Source: Geomonas subterranea (GTDB taxonomy: Bacteria; Desulfobacterota; Desulfuromonadia; Geobacterales; Geobacteraceae). Taken from it: 64,000 nt of DNA. Where the stretch lies: the NCBI RefSeq assembly GCF_019063845.1, contig NZ_CP077683.1, forward strand, positions 1,116,001-1,180,000, read 5' to 3'. Below are positions 1,462-11,950 of this stretch, in pieces. Position 1 is the stretch's first letter; each line of letters starts with the position of its first letter. A program made the position numbers and the translations under genes. The notes below the pieces were generated by a model, which saw only the letters and a program-made list of their open reading frames with translations, searched no databases and was not told where the DNA came from.

Positions 1462-3450
1462 TCAGTGCTCGCAGGGGAGCAGCACAGTGAAGCTGCTCCC
1501 GCGACCGGGCACGCTTTCCACGTCGATGCAGCCGCCGTGCTCCCTTATGATGCCGTAACTCACGGACAACCCGAGCCCGGTGCCGTTGGCCTTGGTGGTG
1601 TAGAAGGGGTTGAATACCTGCCTCAAGTTTTCCAGCTGGATGCCGACCCCGGTGTCGGAAATCTTCACCTCGTAATGGTCGCCGCTTCCCACCGGAGCGC
1701 TCCTGATGCAGAGCGCGCCCCCTTGCGGCATGGCCTGCACCGCGTTCAGGATCAGGTTGGTGAACACCTGCCGCAGCTGGTCCTCGTCACCCTCGATCAC
1801 GGCCGTCTCCTCCGCGTATAACTCCAGCACCTCGATCCCCTCCAGGGAGACCTGGTGTCCCAATTGCCCCACTATCTCGTGTAAAAGCTCGTTCAGCCGC
1901 ACCTCGCCGCGCTCCATCTGCTCGCGCCGGGCGAATTTCAACAGGTTCGAGACGATCCGCTCCACCCGTTTCACCTGCTGAAAAATGGTGTCCACTTCCT
2001 CCCGGTTCGGCGCATCCTCGGGGACCGAGAGCTGTAAAAGCTCGGTGTTGCCCCGGATGATGGCCATGGGGTTGTTGATCTCATGGGCGACCCCGGCTGC
2101 CAGTTCACCGATCGCCGCCAGCTTCTCCACCCGCACCAGTTCCTCGCGCGTCTGCACCAGGAGCCGGTTCTTCTCCTCCAGTTCCGCGGTCCTCAGTTGC
2201 ACCTTCTGCTCCAGGTTCCGGTTCAGCTCGATGATGCTGTCTTCGCGCTCGGCAAGGGACTGGCTCATGTCGTTGAAGCGCTCGGCCAGGTCGCCGATTT
2301 CGTCGCGCGAGTCGATGTTGCTCTTGACGTCCCTCTCGCCCGCCGCCACCCGCCGGGTCAACAGCTCAAGTTCCTTGATCGGTTGCGCAAGCTTCCGCCC
2401 GAGAAAACCCGCCATGGAGACCCCGGTCAGCCCGCTCAGAAGCAGCACGAAGCTTAAAAGGACGGCCATGTCGGTCTTTACCGCAGAGTAGTGACTCTCC
2501 AGCATCCCCACGTAGAGCGCACCGATCGGCACGCCCTGCAGCGACAGGATCGGCTCGTATGCCGTCAGGTGCCAGTCGTTCACCACGAAGGCCCTCCCGA
2601 CCCACTTGGCGCCCTTCAGCAGCACGCGGTCGTAAACCGGCGCAGAGAGCTTGGTCCCGATGGCGCGGCTGCCGTCGGTATTGGGGACGTTGGTGGCGAT
2701 CCTCACGTCCCCCTGGAAGATGGTTGAATTACCCACGTCCCGGCCGTTGGACTTGGCCCCCTCGTAGACCACGTTCTTAATCTTGTCGACGAGCTTCTTG
2801 TTGTTGTTCAGGAGAACTCCGCCGTAGAGGGCACCGACGACGTTGCCCGCGGGGTCGCGCACCGGGGCGGCCACGAAAAGGAACATGGCGCCGTTGAGCG
2901 GGGCAGGGGGGGTGGGGTCGGAGCGGGTTCCGGTCACGGTGACATGCGCCTGCCGCACCAGTTCCTCCCCCTCCAGGGCCAGTTCGCCGGTCGGGATGAT
3001 GGTGGTCCCGCTCACCAGTTCCCCCTTGAGCGCGCGCGCCACGAACTGGTTGCGCAGTTTCTCGTCGCCGAACTGCCGGGGGTTGTTGGCGCGGAAGATG
3101 ACCTTCCCGGAGGCGTCGACCGCCGCCAGGATGTCAAGGTGCTCGCTTTTGCGCACCGGGGCCAGGGTGGCGGCAAGCGCGTGCTGGTCGGCGGCCGCCA
3201 CGGTCTCGGCCGTCCTGCCGAAAGAGGCGGAGAGCTTCACCGCATCGTAGAGCCGGGTCAACTCGTTCAGGTACGCCTCGCGCGCCACGGAGAGGTCGTA
3301 ACGCACCTTCTCCTGTGCCTGCGCTGCTACCTTGGCGCTCAGGATAAAAACGCCGGCCATCCAGCAGATCAGGATGGCGATCCCCAGCGGGATCAGCGTC
3401 GCGACCGTCAGCTTGGTCTTGATGGGGAAACGGAGCCTGGGGATATTCAT
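1462..3450 (-). CDS. Membrane sensor histidine kinase (Cache-HAMP-HisKA-HATPase)
   Basis: A 662-residue sensor kinase. The chosen ATG (protein starts MNIPRLRFPIK) overlaps the regulator stop as ATGA, and the longer frame upstream only re-reads the regulator gene. An N-terminal membrane helix (about 12-37) is followed by a roughly 250-residue periplasmic Cache-like domain with GALYGGVLLNNN, a second membrane segment, HAMP, a coiled coil, the phospho-acceptor box VAHEINNPMAIIRG, and an HATPase domain ending in GTGLGLSVSYGII. It is translationally coupled to an NtrC-type regulator beside formate dehydrogenase, so it probably controls that operon. The ligand is unknown. It is closely similar in layout and sequence to the kinase at 32548-34551. 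Confidence 0.93.
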   Translation of the reverse strand: MNIPRLRFPIKTKLTVATLIPLGIAILICWMAGVFILSAKVAAQAQEKVRYDLSVAREAYLNELTRLYDAVKLSASFGRTAETVAAADQHALAATLAPVRKSEHLDILAAVDASGKVIFRANNPRQFGDEKLRNQFVARALKGELVSGTTIIPTGELALEGEELVRQAHVTVTGTRSDPTPPAPLNGAMFLFVAAPVRDPAGNVVGALYGGVLLNNNKKLVDKIKNVVYEGAKSNGRDVGNSTIFQGDVRIATNVPNTDGSRAIGTKLSAPVYDRVLLKGAKWVGRAFVVNDWHLTAYEPILSLQGVPIGALYVGMLESHYSAVKTDMAVLLSFVLLLSGLTGVSMAGFLGRKLAQPIKELELLTRRVAAGERDVKSNIDSRDEIGDLAERFNDMSQSLAEREDSIIELNRNLEQKVQLRTAELEEKNRLLVQTREELVRVEKLAAIGELAAGVAHEINNPMAIIRGNTELLQLSVPEDAPNREEVDTIFQQVKRVERIVSNLLKFARREQMERGEVRLNELLHEIVGQLGHQVSLEGIEVLELYAEETAVIEGDEDQLRQVFTNLILNAVQAMPQGGALCIRSAPVGSGDHYEVKISDTGVGIQLENLRQVFNPFYTTKANGTGLGLSVSYGIIREHGGCIDVESVPGRGSSFTVLLPCEH

Positions 3451-4811
3451 GAGGGGATGGCGATCCCGTATTCGGCGATCTTGCGGTCCAGCGTCTTGCG
3501 GGATATGCCGAGTATCTCCGCGGAGCGGCTCTTGTGGTAGCCGGTACCGAGCAGGGTCCGCTCGATGTGCACCTTCTCCATGTTTTCCAGCGAGACGAGC
3601 TGCGGCTCGGGGGGGGGCGCGACCTTTTGCTGACGGCGCCAGATGGGGAGCTCCTTGGGGGTCACCAGCGGCGTCCGGGCGAGGATCACGGCGCGCTCCA
3701 TGACGTTTTCCAGCTCGCGGATGTTGCCGGGCCAGTCGTAGCCGCACAGGATCAGCAGCGCCTCCGGCGTCACGCCGGTTACCTCCTTCTTCATCTTGAG
3801 GCTGTATTTTTTCAGGAAATGCTGGGCCAGCGGCTCGATGTCGTCCTTTCTCTCGCGCAGGGGGGGGAAGGGGATGTTGATCACGTTCAGGCGATAGTAG
3901 AGGTCCTCGCGGAACCTCCCGGCGCGCACCTCCTCCTCGAGGTCCTTGTTGGTGGCGGCGACGAAGCGGATGTCGGCGCTCTTGCTGCGGGTGGCGCCGA
4001 CCGGGATGAAGTCGCGCTCCTGGATCACGCGCAAAAGCTTCGCCTGGATGGGGAGGCTCATGTCGCCGATCTCGTCCATGAACAGGGTGCCGCCGTCGGC
4101 CTCCTCCAGGAGCCCCTTCTGGTGCGTTATGGCGCCGGTGAAAGCGCCGCGCACGTGCCCGAAGAGCTGGCTCTCCAAAAGGGTCTCGGTGAGGGCGGCG
4201 CAGTTTATGGAGAGGAAGCGGCGCTCGCGCCGGGGGCTGTTGTAGTGGATGGCACCCGCGATGAGTTCCTTGCCGGTGCCGGATTCGCCGAGCACCAGTA
4301 TGTTCGCCTCGCTGGCGGCGACCTGGAGGGTGAGGTCGTAGGTCTCCTGGAACACGGCGCTTCTGAAGATGATGGCGTCCTGCAGGATGGGTTTGCCGAT
4401 CTCCGATTTGAGCGCCCGGTTTTCCTGCAGGAGCTGCTCCTTCTCCAGGGCGTTTTTCAGGACGCTCAGGATCTTCTCCTTCGGGAACGGTTTGGTGACG
4501 TAATCGTAGGCCCCGAGCTTGATGGCCTCCACCGCGGCGTCGATGGTGCCGAACGCGGTCATGATGATGATCGGGAGCGAGGGACGGAGCTGCTTCACCT
4601 CCTGCAGTACGCTGATGCCGTCGAGATCCGGCATCCTGACGTCCTGAAGGATCAAATCCGCGTCCCCGGGGTCCCCCTCGCGCAGGCGGCGCAAAAGCAG
4701 CGAGCCGGCGTTGAAGGTCTCCACCAGGTACCCCTGGGTCTGCAACAGCTTCTTCAGGTAGATGAGGATCCCTTCCTCGTCGTCGCAGATGAGAATTCTT
4801 TCTTGTGTCAT
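3447..4811 (-). CDS. NtrC-family sigma-54 response regulator
   Basis: A 454-residue activator: receiver domain (acidic pocket DDEE, phospho-acceptor Asp57 in LQDVRMPD, TKPFPKEK), AAA+ domain with Walker A GESGTGKEL and the sigma-54 contact loop GAFTGA, and a Fis-type helix-turn-helix (SAEILGISRKTLDRKI). The ATG giving MTQERILI was preferred over an in-frame codon 29 triplets upstream because the receiver fold begins here. It is divergent from the formate dehydrogenase operon, whose upstream region has a -24/-12 promoter and a dyad suited to such an activator. Regulation of formate dehydrogenase is inferred from position. Confidence 0.95.
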   Translation of the reverse strand: MTQERILICDDEEGILIYLKKLLQTQGYLVETFNAGSLLLRRLREGDPGDADLILQDVRMPDLDGISVLQEVKQLRPSLPIIIMTAFGTIDAAVEAIKLGAYDYVTKPFPKEKILSVLKNALEKEQLLQENRALKSEIGKPILQDAIIFRSAVFQETYDLTLQVAASEANILVLGESGTGKELIAGAIHYNSPRRERRFLSINCAALTETLLESQLFGHVRGAFTGAITHQKGLLEEADGGTLFMDEIGDMSLPIQAKLLRVIQERDFIPVGATRSKSADIRFVAATNKDLEEEVRAGRFREDLYYRLNVINIPFPPLRERKDDIEPLAQHFLKKYSLKMKKEVTGVTPEALLILCGYDWPGNIRELENVMERAVILARTPLVTPKELPIWRRQQKVAPPPEPQLVSLENMEKVHIERTLLGTGYHKSRSAEILGISRKTLDRKIAEYGIAIPS

Positions 4812-4863
4812 TTTGGGGCGTTCCTCGCTTCTTTCCCGCGCCGTTGCTGGGGGGCGCGTCTTG

Positions 4864-4887
4864 GACAAAATGTCACACATTTTGACA
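4864..4887. promoter_or_regulatory. Candidate enhancer-type dyad for the NtrC-like regulator
   Basis: GACAAAATGT-CAC-ACATTTTGAC is a 10-base inverted repeat with one mismatch, and it contains TGTCA-N7-TGACA (4871-4887). It lies between the divergent regulator and formate dehydrogenase genes, about 120 bases upstream of the -24/-12 element, a usual distance for a bacterial enhancer-binding protein. Assignment to the adjacent regulator is inference. Confidence 0.6.
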
Positions 4888-4911
4888 AAAAGACGCAATT
4901 GTTAATTAAAG

Positions 4912-5000
4912 TTAACGTTAATGAAAATCCCGGTTGGCGCAGACAACATTATCATTTCGGATGTTTACGGTACACAACTATTTTTATAGTAAACGTTTAC
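4912..5000. promoter_or_regulatory. Two AACGTT-centred palindromes
   Basis: Perfect palindromes TTAACGTTAA (4912-4921) and GTAAACGTTTAC (4989-5000) share the AACGTT core. Their centres are 78 bases apart, and the second ends four bases before the -24/-12 promoter. They could be a pair of operators for a second regulator, possibly a repressor. No binding protein can be named. Confidence 0.4.
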
Positions 5001-5004
5001 GCGC

Positions 5005-5020
5005 TGGCATGGCAATTGCC
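5005..5020 (+). promoter_or_regulatory. Sigma-54 (-24/-12) promoter of the formate dehydrogenase operon
   Basis: TGGCAT-GGCAA-TTGCC matches the consensus TGGCAC-N5-TTGCW, with GG and GC separated by exactly ten bases. It lies 60 bases upstream of the catalytic-subunit ATG and faces it. Together with the adjacent NtrC-type regulator this is a well-supported call. Confidence 0.82.
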
Positions 5021-5080
5021 GTATACGCGGTGCTTATCCGGCGTCGACGACGTTTATCATGGAAAAAGGAGAGATTCAAC

Positions 5081-8000
5081 ATGGCAGTTTCACGACGTGA
5101 GTTTCTGCAGGGGGGGGCGGCGGCAGCGGCGCTGATCCTCTCCGGCAAAAAAGCGGAAGCGGGCGGCGCAGACGCCCCGCAGATGCGGACCAAGGGGCTG
5201 AAAAGCTCGACCACCATCTGTCCTTTCTGCGCGGTAGGTTGCGGGCTTGTGGTGCATACCAAGAACGGCAAGATCGTGAACATCGAGGGGGACACCCAGC
5301 ACCCGATTAACCAGGGTGCGCTCTGCTCGAAGGGTAGCGCGCTGTTCCAGGTGGCCAACAACGAGCGCCGCCTGCAGAAGGTGATGTACCGCGCCCCCGG
5401 CAGCGACAAGTTCGAAGAGAAGTCGTGGGACTGGGCCCTGGAGCGCATCGCGCAGAAGATGAAGGAGACGCGCGACAAGTCCTTCAAGGCGAAAGAGATC
5501 AACAAGAAGGACAACAAGGAGTACGTGGTCAACCGCACCGAAGGGATGGCATTCCTCGGCGGCGCCGGTCTCGACAACGAGGAGTGCTACCTCTGGAGCA
5601 AGTTCGCCCGCTCCATGGGGGTCGCGAACCTCGAACACCAAGCCCGAATATGACACTCCGCTACAGTCGCCGGTCTGGCGGCTTCGTTTGGACGTGGGGC
5701 AATGACCAACCACTGGATCGACCTGAGAAACGCTGACGCGATCCTCGCCATCGGCTGCAACCCGGCCGAGAATCACCCGATTTCCATGAAATGGATCGAG
5801 GCGGCCATGGATCAGGGCGGCAAGCTGATCGCCGTCGATCCCCGCTTCACCAGGACCGCCTCCAAGGCGGACCACTACGCGCAGATCCGTCCGGGCACCG
5901 ACATCGCCTTCCTGGGCGGCATGATCAACTACGCCCTCCAGAACAACATGATTCACGAGGAGTACGTGCGCGAGTACACCAACGCGGCCTTCATCGTGAA
6001 CGAGAAGTACGACTTCAACGAAGGGATCTTCTGCTCCTTCGACGACCAGGAGAAGACCTACGACCCGAAGGCCTGGGCCTACGCGGTCGACGGTTCCGGC
6101 AACCCCAAGCGCGACCACAGCCTCAAGGACCCGCGCTGCGTGTTCCAGCTCCTGAAAAAGCACTACTCCCGCTACACCGTGGAGATGGTCTGCTCCATCA
6201 CCGGCACCAAGAAGGAAGACTACATCGCCGTCGCCAAGGCCTTCTGCTCCACCGGCCGCGCCGACAAGGCGGGTACCATCCTTTACGCGATGGGTATCAC
6301 CCAGTCCACCCACGGCACCCAGAACGTCCGCGCTACCGCCATGCTGCAGATGCTTCTGGGTAACATCGGCATCGCCGGTGGCGGCGTCAACGCGCTCCGC
6401 GGCGAGTCCAACGTCCAGGGTTCCTCAGATTACGGTCTGCTTTTCCACCTGCTACCGGGTTACCTGAAGTCGCCCGAGTTCGACAACGTCGACCTCAAGT
6501 CCTACCTCGAGAAATGGACTCCTAAGACCAAGGATCCGAAGAGCGCCAACTGGTGGGGCAACACCCCGAAGTACACCGTGAGCCTCCTGAAAGCCTGGTA
6601 CGGCGACAACGCCACCAAGGAAAATGGTTTCTGCTACGACTACCTCCCCAAGAGAAGCGGCAACTACTCGTTCATGAAGCTGATGGAGAAGATGGGTAAG
6701 GGCGAGCTGCAGGGCCTGGTCTGCATGGGCCAGAATCCGGCCGTGGGCGGCCCGGATTCGTTGAAGACCCGCGAGGCGCTCGGCAAGCTGGACTGGCTCG
6801 TCACCGTCGACCTCTGGGAGACCGAGACCTCGATCTTCTGGAAGCGCCCCGGCGTCAACCCGAAGGACATCAAGACTGAGGTTTTCATGCTGCCGGCAGC
6901 CTCTTCCGTCGAGAAGGAAGGCTCCATCTCCAACTCCGGCCGCTGGGCCCAGTGGCGCTACAAGGCCGCCGAGCCGGTCGGTGACGCGAAGAGCGACCTC
7001 TGGATCATCAACCAGTTTGCCACCCGCGTGAAGAAGGCTTACGAAAAAGGCGGCGCCTTCCCCGAGCCGATCACCAAGCTCTCCTGGAACTACGGCAAGG
7101 GCGAGGAGCCGGAAGTGCATATGGTGGCCAAGGAGATCAACGGCTACTTCACCAAGGACATGACCATCGTCGACAAGGACAAGACCCTGGAGTTCAAGGC
7201 AGGTGACCAGGTCCCGATGTTCAAGTACCTCCAGGACGACGGCTCCACCGTCTCCGGCTGCTGGATCTACTGCGGCTCCTACACCAAGGAAGGGAACCAG
7301 ATGGCGCGCCGCGACCTGGCCGACCCGACTGGTCTGGGCATGTACCCCAAGTGGTCCTGGTGCTGGCCGGTCAACCGTCGCATCATCTACAACCGCGGTT
7401 CGGTCAACCCGGACGGCGTACCGTTCAACCCCAAGCGCGTGGTCATCACCTGGGATGCCCTGGAGAAGAAATGGAAGGGCGACGTGCCCGACGGTCCCTG
7501 GCCACCGATGAACGACGCCAAGGAAGGGAAATATCCCTTCATCATGCTGCCTGAAGGTCACGGTCGCCTCTACGCCCTGGACATGAAGGACGGTCCGTTC
7601 CCCGAGCATTACGAGCCGGTGGAGAGCCCGGCCAAGAACCTCATGTCCAAGACCCAGACCAACCCGGCCGTGAAGATCCCGGCCAACATGTCGAGCGACA
7701 CGGCCAAGTTCCCGTTCGTCGGCACCACCTACAGGATGACCGAGCACTGGCAGGCAGGCGCCATGACCCGTTCACTCCCCTGGCTGGTGGAACTGGTCCC
7801 GACCATGTTCGTGGAGATCTCCCAGACGCTGGCACGTGCCAAAGGCATCAGCAACGGCGACATGGTCAAGGTAACCACCGAGCGCGGTTCCATTGAGGCG
7901 AAGGCCCTGGTCACTTCCAGGCTGAAGCCGTTCAACGTGCAGGGGAAAGAGGTTGAGCAGGTCGGTCTCCCCTGGCACTTCGGTTATGCAGGTCTTGCTA

Positions 8001-8110
8001 CCGGCGACTCCGGCAACGTCCTTACGCCGTCGGTCGGTTGCGCGAACACAAGCATCCCCGAGTTCAAGGCATTCCTCTGCAACATCGAGAAAGGGGGTAA
8101 ACGCGCATGA
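5081..8110 (+). CDS. fdnG: Selenocysteine formate dehydrogenase, catalytic subunit (FdnG type)
   Basis: Oxidises formate to CO2 at a Mo/W-bis-MGD site in the periplasm and passes electrons to the Fe-S subunit. The 1009-residue product starts with a Tat signal (SRREFL, then an Ala-rich stretch), followed by the 4Fe-4S motif CPFCAVGCG with a fourth Cys in ALCSKG. The frame is interrupted by TGA at 5651-5653 (codon 191), in NLEHQARI-TGA-HSATVAG. That is the selenocysteine site of formate dehydrogenase N, and the frame continues unchanged after it into GRGAMTNHWIDL. The ATG at 5081 has GGAGA upstream and gives the Tat signal. A SECIS hairpin follows the TGA. The gene overlaps the next by ATGA. 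Confidence 0.96.
5651..5682 (+). promoter_or_regulatory. UGA selenocysteine codon with bacterial SECIS hairpin
   Basis: TGA (5651-5653) is followed after 12 bases by a six-pair stem, GTCGCC (5666-5671) with GGCGGC (5677-5682), including one U-G wobble, closing on a GGTCT loop (5672-5676). The loop matches the GGUCU apical loop recognised by SelB in Escherichia coli fdhF and fdnG, at a comparable distance from the UGA. The selA, selB and selC genes are not in the window. Confidence 0.88.
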
Positions 8111-8946
8111 GCAGCGAGAACCAAGACTTCAACAAAAGCAAAGCATTTTTGATCGACATGACCAAGTGCACCGGCTGCCGCGGCTGCCAGGTCGCCTGCA
8201 AGCAGTGGAACCAGCTGGGCGCCGAGAAGACCGAGTTCTTCACCGGCGAAGGCTACCAGAACCCGCCGCTCATGTCGGAATACACCTTTACCCGCATCAA
8301 GTTCCGGGACTACGAGAAGAACGGGCAGAACGAGTTCGCCTTCTACAAAGAGATGTGCATGCACTGCAACGAGCCTGCCTGCGCATCCGTCTGCCCGGTA
8401 GGCGCCTTCAAGAAGACCAAGGAAGGCCCGGTCACCTATGACGCGGAACGCTGCATCGGCTGCCGCTTCTGCATGGTAGCCTGCCCGTTCGGGGTGCCCA
8501 AGTACGAGTGGAGCAAGGCCCTGCCGCTGGTGAGAAAGTGCACCGGCTGCTACTCCAGGGTGAAGGAAGGGCTGAAGCCTGCCTGCGCTACCACCTGCGT
8601 CTCCGCCATCACCTACGGCAACCGCGAGGAGATGATCAAGGAAGCCAACAAGAGGATCGCGGCTCGTCCCGAGAAGTACCTGAAGAAGCTCTACGGCTCG
8701 GAAGAGGCGGGCGGCACCTCGGTCATCTACCTGACCGCGCTCCCCTTCGACGAGCTCGGCTTCAAGCCGGTCACCAAGCGTCCGCTCCCGTCCTACACCT
8801 GGCAGGCGCTGCGCCTGGTCCCGGGCATCTTCCTCACCGTCGGCAGCTCGCTGTCGCTGCTTTCCTGGTTCAACCACAGGAAGGAGAGGATCGCCAAGGA
8901 AGAGGAGCAGAGAAAATCCGGCGCTACGCCGAAGGAGGAGAGCTAG
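8107..8946 (+). CDS. fdnH: Formate dehydrogenase iron-sulfur subunit (FdnH type)
   Basis: A 279-residue electron-transfer subunit with four ferredoxin-like clusters. Cys motifs include CTGCRGCQVACKQW, CMHCNEPACASVCPVGA, CIGCRFCMVACPFG and CTGCYSRVKEGLKPAC with CATTC. A single membrane helix near residues 235-255 (LRLVPGIFLTVGSSLSLLSW) followed by a charged cytoplasmic-type tail is the usual arrangement for anchoring to the membrane subunit. It has no signal peptide, so it is probably co-exported with the Tat-bearing catalytic subunit. Its ATG overlaps the catalytic-subunit stop, and the next gene begins directly after its stop. Confidence 0.95.
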   Translation: MSSENQDFNKSKAFLIDMTKCTGCRGCQVACKQWNQLGAEKTEFFTGEGYQNPPLMSEYTFTRIKFRDYEKNGQNEFAFYKEMCMHCNEPACASVCPVGAFKKTKEGPVTYDAERCIGCRFCMVACPFGVPKYEWSKALPLVRKCTGCYSRVKEGLKPACATTCVSAITYGNREEMIKEANKRIAARPEKYLKKLYGSEEAGGTSVIYLTALPFDELGFKPVTKRPLPSYTWQALRLVPGIFLTVGSSLSLLSWFNHRKERIAKEEEQRKSGATPKEES

Positions 8947-10149
8947 ATGACCGCTGCAAAGATAATCGTTAACGAGATCAAGGGCTACCACCGCTTCGTT
9001 AAGTTCCTGATCGTCCTGGTGGCTCTGGGCGCACTCGCCTCCCTGGCCCGTTTCGTGTTCGGTCTGGGCGTCACCACAAACCTGAACGACACCTTCCCTT
9101 GGGGGCTCTGGATCTCCTTCGACGTCGTCACCGCCGTACCTCTGGCGGCTGGTGCCTTCACCCTCGGGGCCATCGTGCACTGCTTCCACATCAAGAAGCT
9201 CGAGCCGCTGGTGCGCCCGGCCATCGTGACCGGCTTCCTCGGCTACTCCCTGGTCTGCGTCGGCCTCCTGCTCGACCTCGGCCAGCCGCAGCGCTGCTGG
9301 CACACCATGGTGTACTGGAACCCGCACTCCCCGATGTTCGAGGTTTCCATGTGCATCGCCGCCTACACCACGGTGCTCTTCCTCGAGTTCCTGTCGCCGG
9401 TGTGCGAGAAGTTCGGTTACCACGTGCCGCTGCGCCTTCTGCGCACCATCGAGATGCCGCTGGTGGTCGCGGCGGCCTCCATCTCGACCCTGCACCAGTC
9501 GTCGCTCGGCACCTTCTTCCTGATCGCGGTCGACAAGCTGCACAGCCTCTGGTACAACCCGCTGCTGCCGCTTCTGTTCTGGCTCTCCGCTATGTGCGCC
9601 GGCATCTCCATCATCATCGTGGAGGCCACCATGAGCCACAAGTACATGGGGCAGCCGGACGAGAGCGAACTGCTCGAGACCCTGGCCAAGATCCTTCCCT
9701 GGGTCATCACGGTGTACCTGACCGTGAAGGTGTTCTCCCTGGTGGCACTCACCCAGGGGCCGCTCTTCAACCGTCCCGGCCTGCTGGTGCTCTTCGTCGT
9801 CGAAGTCGCGGTAGGTGTCCTGCTGCCGCTGGTCATGCTCATGAACGGCAACGTGCGTGAGAACAACCGTCTGCGCGCCACCGCCGCCTGGCTGGTGATC
9901 GCAGGCGTCATCCTGAACCGCTTCAACGTCTCCATGTTCGGCATGGAGGCTCCGGGAACCTTCTACTACCCCTCCTTCCTGGAGTCCGTGGTAACCATCG
10001 GCATCATCGCGGCGCACATCCTGTTCTTCGTGCTGATCGCGAAGTACTTCCCGATCTTCGAGCACCATCCCGAGACCGTCGACTACTCGATCCCGGACCA
10101 CTTCCGCAAAACCGAGAAAGGCCATGCTCACGGTGCGGCCAAGGCGTAG
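8947..10149 (+). CDS. NrfD/HybB-type quinone-reactive membrane subunit of formate dehydrogenase
   Basis: A 400-residue polytopic membrane protein with about nine or ten hydrophobic helices. It belongs to the NrfD/PsrC/HybB family, which exchanges electrons with the quinone pool without haem. Recognisable segments are NDTFPWGLWISFDVVTAV and a helix-rich C-terminus ending in a His-rich tail. It fills the place normally held by the di-haem cytochrome b subunit FdnI. The ATG follows the previous stop after one base, with GGAGGAGAG ahead of it. The role as third subunit is inferred from operon position and is strong. Confidence 0.9.
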   Translation: MTAAKIIVNEIKGYHRFVKFLIVLVALGALASLARFVFGLGVTTNLNDTFPWGLWISFDVVTAVPLAAGAFTLGAIVHCFHIKKLEPLVRPAIVTGFLGYSLVCVGLLLDLGQPQRCWHTMVYWNPHSPMFEVSMCIAAYTTVLFLEFLSPVCEKFGYHVPLRLLRTIEMPLVVAAASISTLHQSSLGTFFLIAVDKLHSLWYNPLLPLLFWLSAMCAGISIIIVEATMSHKYMGQPDESELLETLAKILPWVITVYLTVKVFSLVALTQGPLFNRPGLLVLFVVEVAVGVLLPLVMLMNGNVRENNRLRATAAWLVIAGVILNRFNVSMFGMEAPGTFYYPSFLESVVTIGIIAAHILFFVLIAKYFPIFEHHPETVDYSIPDHFRKTEKGHAHGAAKA

Positions 10150-10302: not shown

Positions 10303-11703
10303 GTGGCAACTATTTACAGTTTCAAGAAGGGCGTCATGGAGCAGGTGGAAGGCGGGGTGGTGAACGAGTATCCCCTGCAGCTGGTGGTGAACGGGCGCGA
10401 GATGGCGACCCTGATCGCTTCCCCCCACGACCTCCGTTTCCTGGTTGCCGGTTTCCTGCGCCTGCAGGGCTTCGTCACCAAAGTCGAAGACTTCCTTGCG
10501 CTGGCCATCTGCCAGGACTTCGGCGCCGCGAGCGTCACCATCCGCGGCGAACTCCCCGAGCGCCTGAAGCCGGTGCTCACCTCCGGCTGCGGCACCGGGA
10601 TCAGCTTCAATATGCCGGAACCGGTCCAGAAGTGCGGTCCCTCCCGGGTGCACGCGCCCGAGACCATCTTCGCCCTGATGAACCAGCTGGCGCAGAAGTG
10701 CGAAGGGTACCAAAACCACGGCGGGATGCACTCCGCGGGGGTCGGGAGCGACACGCTGCTCCTGCATGCCGAGGACATCGGCCGCCACAATACCATTGAC
10801 AGAATCGCCGGCGAGGCGCTCCTGAAGGGGATCTCGCTGGCTGGAACCATACTGGTCACCTCGGGGCGCGTCTCCACCGAACTGGTCGCCAAGGCGTCGC
10901 TTCTGGGGATCGACCTGATCGCCTCGCGTACCTCGCCCACCGACATGGCGGTGAAGATGGCCGAGGAGGCCGGCATCACCCTGGTGGGGTACGTGCGGGC
11001 CGACAGCTTCAAGGTCTACACCCATCCCGAGGCCATCATCACCTCCGGTCCGGAGAAGATCGCCGGCGTCACCGGCGTGATCCTGGCCGGCGGCGCATCC
11101 AGCCGCATGGGGAGCAACAAGGCGCTCCTGCCGCACAAGGGGGGGCGCTTCATCGAGAGCATCTACCGGGAACTCTCGGAGATCTTCCCGGAAGTGATCC
11201 TGGTGACCAACGCCCCGGAACAGTACCAGTTCCTGCCCTGCCGCAAGGTGGCCGACCTCTACCCGGGCATGGGCGCGCTGGCAGGAATCCACGCCGGGCT
11301 CGCCCAGGCCAGCACCCCGAGCGTCTTCACCGTCGCCTGCGACATGCCGCATCTCGATCCGGCCCTGATCAGGCACATCGCCGGGCGCCGCGGCGGCTGC
11401 GACCTGGTGCTCCCCAGGAGCGAACACGGCTACGAGCCACTGCACGCCGTGTACAACAAGAGTGCCCTGGCCGCCATGGAACAGTGCCTGGAGCAGGGGA
11501 AGCGGCGCATCGTCTCCATCCTGCCCAGCCTGAAGGTGAACGAGATACCCGCCGGCGAGGTGGCGGGCTTCGATCCCGACTTCGACTCCTTCAGTAACAT
11601 CAACACCCCGCAGGAATACTACGAATTGAGAAACGGCGACAAGGCGAGGCCGGGCATCGAGAACCTCCCTGCCGCAGAGGAAGCACACCAAGCGCAGGCC
11701 TAG
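10303..11703 (+). CDS. fdhD-mobA: FdhD-MobA fusion: formate dehydrogenase sulfur carrier plus molybdenum cofactor guanylyltransferase
   Basis: A 466-residue two-domain protein starting at GTG with AAGGAG seven bases upstream. Residues 1-250 are FdhD, which transfers sulfur from a desulfurase to the Mo-bisMGD cofactor so that formate dehydrogenase is active. The family's cysteine loop is TSGCGTG, with a single Cys96 where Escherichia coli has CxxC. Residues about 257-450 are MobA, which attaches GMP to molybdopterin: LAGGASSRMGSNKALL (nucleotide loop), PGMGALAGIHAGL and CDMPHLDP. The fusion joins two consecutive cofactor-maturation steps. It follows the formate dehydrogenase genes on the same strand and precedes tatA. 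Confidence 0.95.
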   Translation: MATIYSFKKGVMEQVEGGVVNEYPLQLVVNGREMATLIASPHDLRFLVAGFLRLQGFVTKVEDFLALAICQDFGAASVTIRGELPERLKPVLTSGCGTGISFNMPEPVQKCGPSRVHAPETIFALMNQLAQKCEGYQNHGGMHSAGVGSDTLLLHAEDIGRHNTIDRIAGEALLKGISLAGTILVTSGRVSTELVAKASLLGIDLIASRTSPTDMAVKMAEEAGITLVGYVRADSFKVYTHPEAIITSGPEKIAGVTGVILAGGASSRMGSNKALLPHKGGRFIESIYRELSEIFPEVILVTNAPEQYQFLPCRKVADLYPGMGALAGIHAGLAQASTPSVFTVACDMPHLDPALIRHIAGRRGGCDLVLPRSEHGYEPLHAVYNKSALAAMEQCLEQGKRRIVSILPSLKVNEIPAGEVAGFDPDFDSFSNINTPQEYYELRNGDKARPGIENLPAAEEAHQAQA

Positions 11704-11776: not shown

Positions 11777-11950
11777 ATGTTTGGATTCGGTATGCCGGAA
11801 ATGATCATCGTGCTCGTGATAGCCCTCGTGGTTGTCGGCCCGGCCAAGTTGCCCCAGCTCGGGCAGGCATTGGGGAGCAGCATCAAGAACTTCAAGAAGG
11901 CTTCCGCCGGCGAGGACGTGGTCCAGCTGAACGAGGAGAAAAAGGCCTAG
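11777..11950 (+). CDS. tatA: Sec-independent protein translocase TatA/TatE
   Basis: A 57-residue TatA-type pore component of the twin-arginine pathway. The protein opens MFGFGMPEMIIVLVIALVVV (one membrane helix), followed by the family hinge GPAKLPQLGQALG, an amphipathic helix (SIKNFKKAS) and an acidic/basic tail. AAAGGAGAAGGTAA precedes the ATG. It closes the formate dehydrogenase cluster, whose catalytic subunit carries a Tat signal, so it probably serves export of that enzyme. No tatB or tatC is nearby. Confidence 0.93.
   Translation: MFGFGMPEMIIVLVIALVVVGPAKLPQLGQALGSSIKNFKKASAGEDVVQLNEEKKA

Follow-up and report, generated by a model that had tools for sequence, protein, structure and literature searches.

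A selenoprotein formate dehydrogenase gene, fdnG, with an in-frame TGA in Geomonas subterranea

Introduction

According to passages of a 2006 survey, the formate dehydrogenase FdhA is the commonest bacterial selenoprotein, being present in 67 of 75 organisms that use selenocysteine (Sec), and both FdhA and SelD are listed for three Geobacter species; the Sec-containing FdhA and SelD of Geobacter were thus published by 2006 at the latest (PMC1794560). Other selenoproteins of Geobacter sulfurreducens are listed in passages of a further report that do not touch on the FdnG of this genus (PMC1242214). In excerpts of two papers, the G. sulfurreducens genes GSU0777-0781 are described as fdnG and the genes for an Fe-S subunit, a membrane subunit, FdhD and TatA/E, and the FdnG as selenocysteine-containing (PMC2725144, PMC7894505). 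The excerpt of the second paper names the FdhD FdhD/mobA-2 and reports FdnG as detected in the proteome (PMC7894505). That of the first records an RpoN promoter of GSU0777 demonstrated by primer extension and places fdnG among the genes down-regulated in an RpoN+ strain, suggesting that control there is not simple activation (PMC2725144). A literature search combining Geomonas with formate dehydrogenase returned, in the excerpts retrieved, only work on methane release from permafrost.

Here we describe an fdnG locus in a window of 64,000 nucleotides from Geomonas subterranea (NZ_CP077683.1, positions 1,116,001 to 1,180,000). Its fdnG is an ordinary selenoprotein formate dehydrogenase of this well-known system and is in that sense already known. 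The main value of the locus lies in annotation, as a gene caller that takes each TGA for a stop would break this key respiratory enzyme into pieces.

Results and Discussion

The gene, its internal TGA and the element behind it are as follows.

5081-8110, + strand: fdnG, formate dehydrogenase catalytic (alpha) subunit, 1009 residues with Sec191 (translation with TGA as Sec, TIGR01553, 1h0h alignment)
5651-5653, + strand: in-frame TGA as selenocysteine, codon 191 (frame reading, 1h0h alignment, codon in relatives)
5654-5696, + strand: bacterial SECIS stem-loop (SECIS_3 match, paired changes, synonymous-codon agreement)
5665-5671/5677-5683, + strand: SECIS apical helix with loop GGTCT at 5672-5676 (base pairing over relatives)

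The frame contains a single internal TGA, exactly at the coordinates of the original prediction; apart from it, the sole in-frame TGA is the stop codon at 8108-8110, which shares bases with the ATG of the Fe-S subunit gene that follows. A ribosome-binding sequence, AAGGAGAG, precedes the fdnG ATG. The read-through protein matches TIGR01553 at 1355.8 bits (cut-off 814.2) over residues 3-1004, and its Fe4S4 (PF04879, residues 41-94), molybdopterin (PF00384) and dinucleotide-binding (PF01568) domains all score above their cut-offs. By whole-protein score and by the three domains, it belongs to the formate dehydrogenase-N alpha subunits. The family match spans the full length only if the TGA is read through: the part before the TGA scores 176.8 bits and the part from 5702 scores 1122 bits, on successive stretches of the model (positions 2-194 and 212-1009), which argues that the arrangement around the TGA is more than chance. 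The N-terminus carries SRREFLQGG, which by eye we take to be a twin-arginine-like signal. Of the named relatives, Geomonas azotofigens, G. edaphica and G. propionica have the most similar FdnG (98%), followed by other Geomonas species.

Among solved structures, 1h0h is the best relative (1152 bits) and 6sdr is among the best (1109.3 bits); both are presumably Desulfovibrio formate dehydrogenases. The E. coli FdnG (1kqf, 978.4 bits) is of the same family and likewise has Sec encoded by UGA, with a SECIS_3 element behind it. Codon 191 lies opposite the X residue of 1h0h, and the flanking residues are identical (HQARI-X-HSATV). The context HQARI-U-HSATV had been taken for that of FdnG; it is exact for this protein and is that of 1h0h, but the E. 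coli FdnG reads NQARV-U-HGPTV.

The FdnG query was aligned to 127 loci and the window, of which 104 loci and the window cover codon 191. As one genome could enter by two routes, some of the resulting 105 rows are duplicates; together the rows hold 85 distinct stretches around the codon. Codon 191 is TGA in 100 rows (80 of the 85 distinct stretches), TGT in three and TGC in two; one of the five Cys rows (L052) is a more distant oxidoreductase with 30% identity. Of the 39 genomes searched, 25 contribute, among the matches listed, a row that is at least 80% identical (25 rows, the window's own included), and every such row has a single TGA. The UGA is thus in frame where homologues have Sec or Cys, as in bacterial selenoproteins. 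Additional stops in relatives were rejected as internal codons: the second TGA of L048 and the TAG of L050 are each the terminal codon, and those of L096 and L111 are TAA at the protein end. In one of the rows with at least 80% identity (genome G019, locus L047), fdnG is divided between two matches in different frames (residues 1-98 and 82-1008), a frameshift or sequencing error.

The GGTCT loop was found as predicted, at 5672-5676 and separated from the TGA by 18 bases. A covariance-model scan of this region had been proposed; in a focused search, Rfam SECIS_3 (RF01989) matches 5648-5706 at 43.4 bits (E 3.5e-9), but this is under the gathering score of 63, whereas the control, E. coli fdnG, reaches 84.3 bits. 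A search of the whole window with Rfam at gathering thresholds gave no match. The element is SECIS-like, with the same position and shape, and because of its sub-threshold score we do not file it as a member of SECIS_3.

Base pairing was compared over the 60 distinct sequences of 53 bases that the 100 TGA rows provide, with helices slid by one to three columns and 500 shuffles as controls. In the apical helix, 372 of 420 cells are paired and 43 cells, in four of the seven pairs, are changed on both sides; the slid helices give at most 257 paired cells, 11 double changes and three such pairs, although the structure was derived from the window itself and is favoured over slid versions. The shuffles reach at most 339 paired cells, a comparison that keeps out neither relatedness nor coding constraint. 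The lower helix has 305 of 420 cells paired (slid, at most 231; shuffle mean 306, maximum 317) and 13 cells changed on both sides versus up to 12 in slid columns; it is backed against slid columns but not against shuffles. Taken together, the focused search and the paired changes of the apical helix place a SECIS element behind the UGA. The loop of the 60 distinct sequences is GGTCT in 40, GCTCT in 11, AGTTT in five, AGTCT in three and GGACT in one. The folding energy of the stem-loop region is unexceptional (z -0.94), with 38 of 200 shuffles folding equally well. In distant Nitrospirae, Desulfobacterales and Chloroflexi relatives (e.g. L094, L103, L112 and L114), an alternative apex, GCTCTGGCAGAGTC, is identical, and possibly reflects lateral transfer.

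Synonymous codons were compared over 49 distinct genes, drawn from the 66 TGA rows that exceed 60% identity and 880 aligned columns. Agreement with the window is 0.92 (12 scored codons) for the 15 codons starting at 188, the top of 895 such stretches, versus 0.68 overall (698 scored codons). This lead is narrow, as stretches near codons 131-132 and 683-691 reach 0.89-0.91. Codons 192-206, behind the TGA alone, agree at 0.82.

Absence of selA, selB or selC from the genome had been named as grounds against the selenoprotein reading. All three are present, together with selD, at four separate places on the one contig searched (4,991,523 bases): tRNA-Sec at 563471-563564 (73 bits, cut-off 47; ARAGORN also calls it and gives the anticodon as tca), SelB at 3792714-3794603 (395.7 bits, cut-off 242.25), SelA at 4128521-4129879 (600.3 bits, cut-off 267.9) and SelD at 4507374-4508291 (360 bits, cut-off 125). 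Each family except SelA, which has a single match, also has weaker matches below the cut-off. The SelD gene (L018, 1486-2418) contains an in-frame TGA of its own at codon 16. An Rfam search behind this TGA gave no SECIS, only one chance-level microRNA match; the case for SelD as a second selenoprotein therefore depends on its in-frame TGA together with the family match.

These results support the reading of 5081-8110 as a selenoprotein formate dehydrogenase, and two other readings of the TGA have to be weighed against it. If 5651-5653 were a true stop, fdnG would be a pseudogene or encode two proteins, and a standard ORF scan does return two pieces, the 3' one with an ATG at 5702. The ORF list contains the second of the predicted fragments, 5702-8110 (802 aa), but the first runs from a TTG start at 4934 to 5653 (239 aa) instead of beginning with fdnG. 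The piece from 5702 would be without the Fe4S4 domain and the signal, the TGA occupies the same codon in nearly all aligned rows, the protein is retained at 80% identity or more in 25 of the 39 genomes (among the matches listed), and the genome has complete Sec machinery. A true stop is in our view extremely improbable. The expected mis-annotation is a genuine risk with plain ORF callers but no certainty, as the one RefSeq record of E. coli fdnG compared is a single CDS (1789-4836 of L128) with the TGA, at codon 196, inside.

Just as improbable is insertion of another amino acid at codon 191, either Trp or Gly through a change of code or Cys through misreading. The five homologous rows with Cys at this codon fit such a reading; however, fdnG itself ends at a TGA, so TGA is not reassigned throughout, and the genome encodes SelA, SelB, SelD and a tRNA-Sec with anticodon tca, with a SECIS behind the TGA. 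We are almost certain of the selenoprotein explanation as a whole, namely that UGA191 of fdnG is decoded as Sec and that the product is an exported quinone-linked formate dehydrogenase.

For decoding in vivo, export, the metal and the electron route, the following picture draws on relatives and general knowledge. UGA191 would be read by tRNA-Sec, which SelA and SelD would help to make and SelB would bring to the ribosome, SelB binding the stem-loop directly behind the UGA. FdnG and its Fe-S partner would be exported by the twin-arginine route, placing FdnG on the outer face of the inner membrane. Formate would be oxidised at a bis-pterin site that holds molybdenum or tungsten and has Sec as a ligand, and the electrons would presumably pass through Fe-S clusters and the NrfD-type membrane subunit to the quinone pool.

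The genes downstream of fdnG are as follows.

8107-8946, + strand: Fe-S (beta) subunit, closest to the HmcB/HybA models though below cut-off, with its ATG overlapping the fdnG stop
8947-10149, + strand: NrfD-family membrane (gamma) subunit (PF03916, 73.4 bits, cut-off 25.8)
10303-11703, + strand: FdhD-MobA fusion, sulfurtransferase and molybdenum cofactor guanylyltransferase, for maturation (family models)
11777-11950, + strand: TatA/E-like small ORF, 57 aa, named by its place (cf. GSU0781) and look

The Fe-S subunit scores 246.6 bits with HmcB (cut-off 420), 207.5 with HybA (cut-off 263) and 160.4 with the FDH-beta model TIGR01582 (FdnH; cut-off 334.7), all below the cut-offs, and the membrane subunit scores best with the HmcC/HybB models, also under cut-off. 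In contrast to E. coli, where the partners are FdnH and FdnI, the window partners thus fit HmcB/HybA and HmcC/HybB best, though at sub-threshold scores. The operon also differs in its membrane subunit from the enzymes of 1h0h and 6sdr, which we take to be two-subunit and soluble. The FdhD-MobA fusion joins two steps of molybdenum-cofactor maturation in a single protein. Compared by description, as given in the excerpts of the G. sulfurreducens reports, the gene order parallels that of GSU0777-0781 and an RpoN promoter is reported there and predicted in the window, whereas the third subunit is a b-type cytochrome in those excerpts and of the NrfD family by Pfam in the window. Neighbourhoods were compared in those 27 of 75 loci whose alignment covers codon 191, whose identity exceeds 75% and whose flanks extend 5 kb either way. 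All 27 have the Fe-S and NrfD genes downstream of fdnG in the same orientation, 26 have FdhD-MobA there and 16 the TatA-like gene, which in one further locus is on the other strand.

Upstream of fdnG, a candidate promoter and two divergent genes were found.

5005-5019, + strand: sigma-54 (RpoN) -24/-12 type promoter TGGCATGGCAATTGC, 61 bases upstream of the fdnG ATG (pattern match)
3447-4898, - strand: sigma-54-activating response regulator, divergent, with the true start probably inside the listed ORF (domain search)
1462-3747, - strand: Cache-domain sensor histidine kinase, divergent (domain search)

TGGCAYRNNNNTTGC at 5005-5019 is the sole match to the sigma-54 consensus in the window (0.17 expected; at least one match in 14 of 100 shuffles). 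Within 300 bases upstream, 46 of 61 rows with at least 75% identity, duplicates included, have such a match, at differing distances; the 15 rows that lack it include the genes of Geomonas limicola and G. silvestris (L059, L080). Taking the promoter site and the G. sulfurreducens operon together, we infer that the fdnG operon may be under sigma-54 control.

In the same 27 loci, the regulator and the kinase lie upstream in divergent orientation in 23 and 22, respectively; no regulator was found in L068, L071, L076 and L087, and one further locus has a kinase match downstream. The response regulator possibly regulates the fdnG operon, and the Cache-domain kinase is its likely partner. More tentatively, and with rather more doubt than confidence, we suggest that FdnG here works with HmcB/HybA-like and HmcC/HybB-like (NrfD) partners, not FdnH/FdnI, under a Cache-domain kinase and a sigma-54 activator, both divergent, that sense formate or a related donor. 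If true, this would be a Geobacteraceae form of the quinone-linked formate dehydrogenase, equipped with a sensor of its own. Short palindromes lie upstream of the sigma-54 site, around 4989-5000 and 4902-4925, and could be activator sites.
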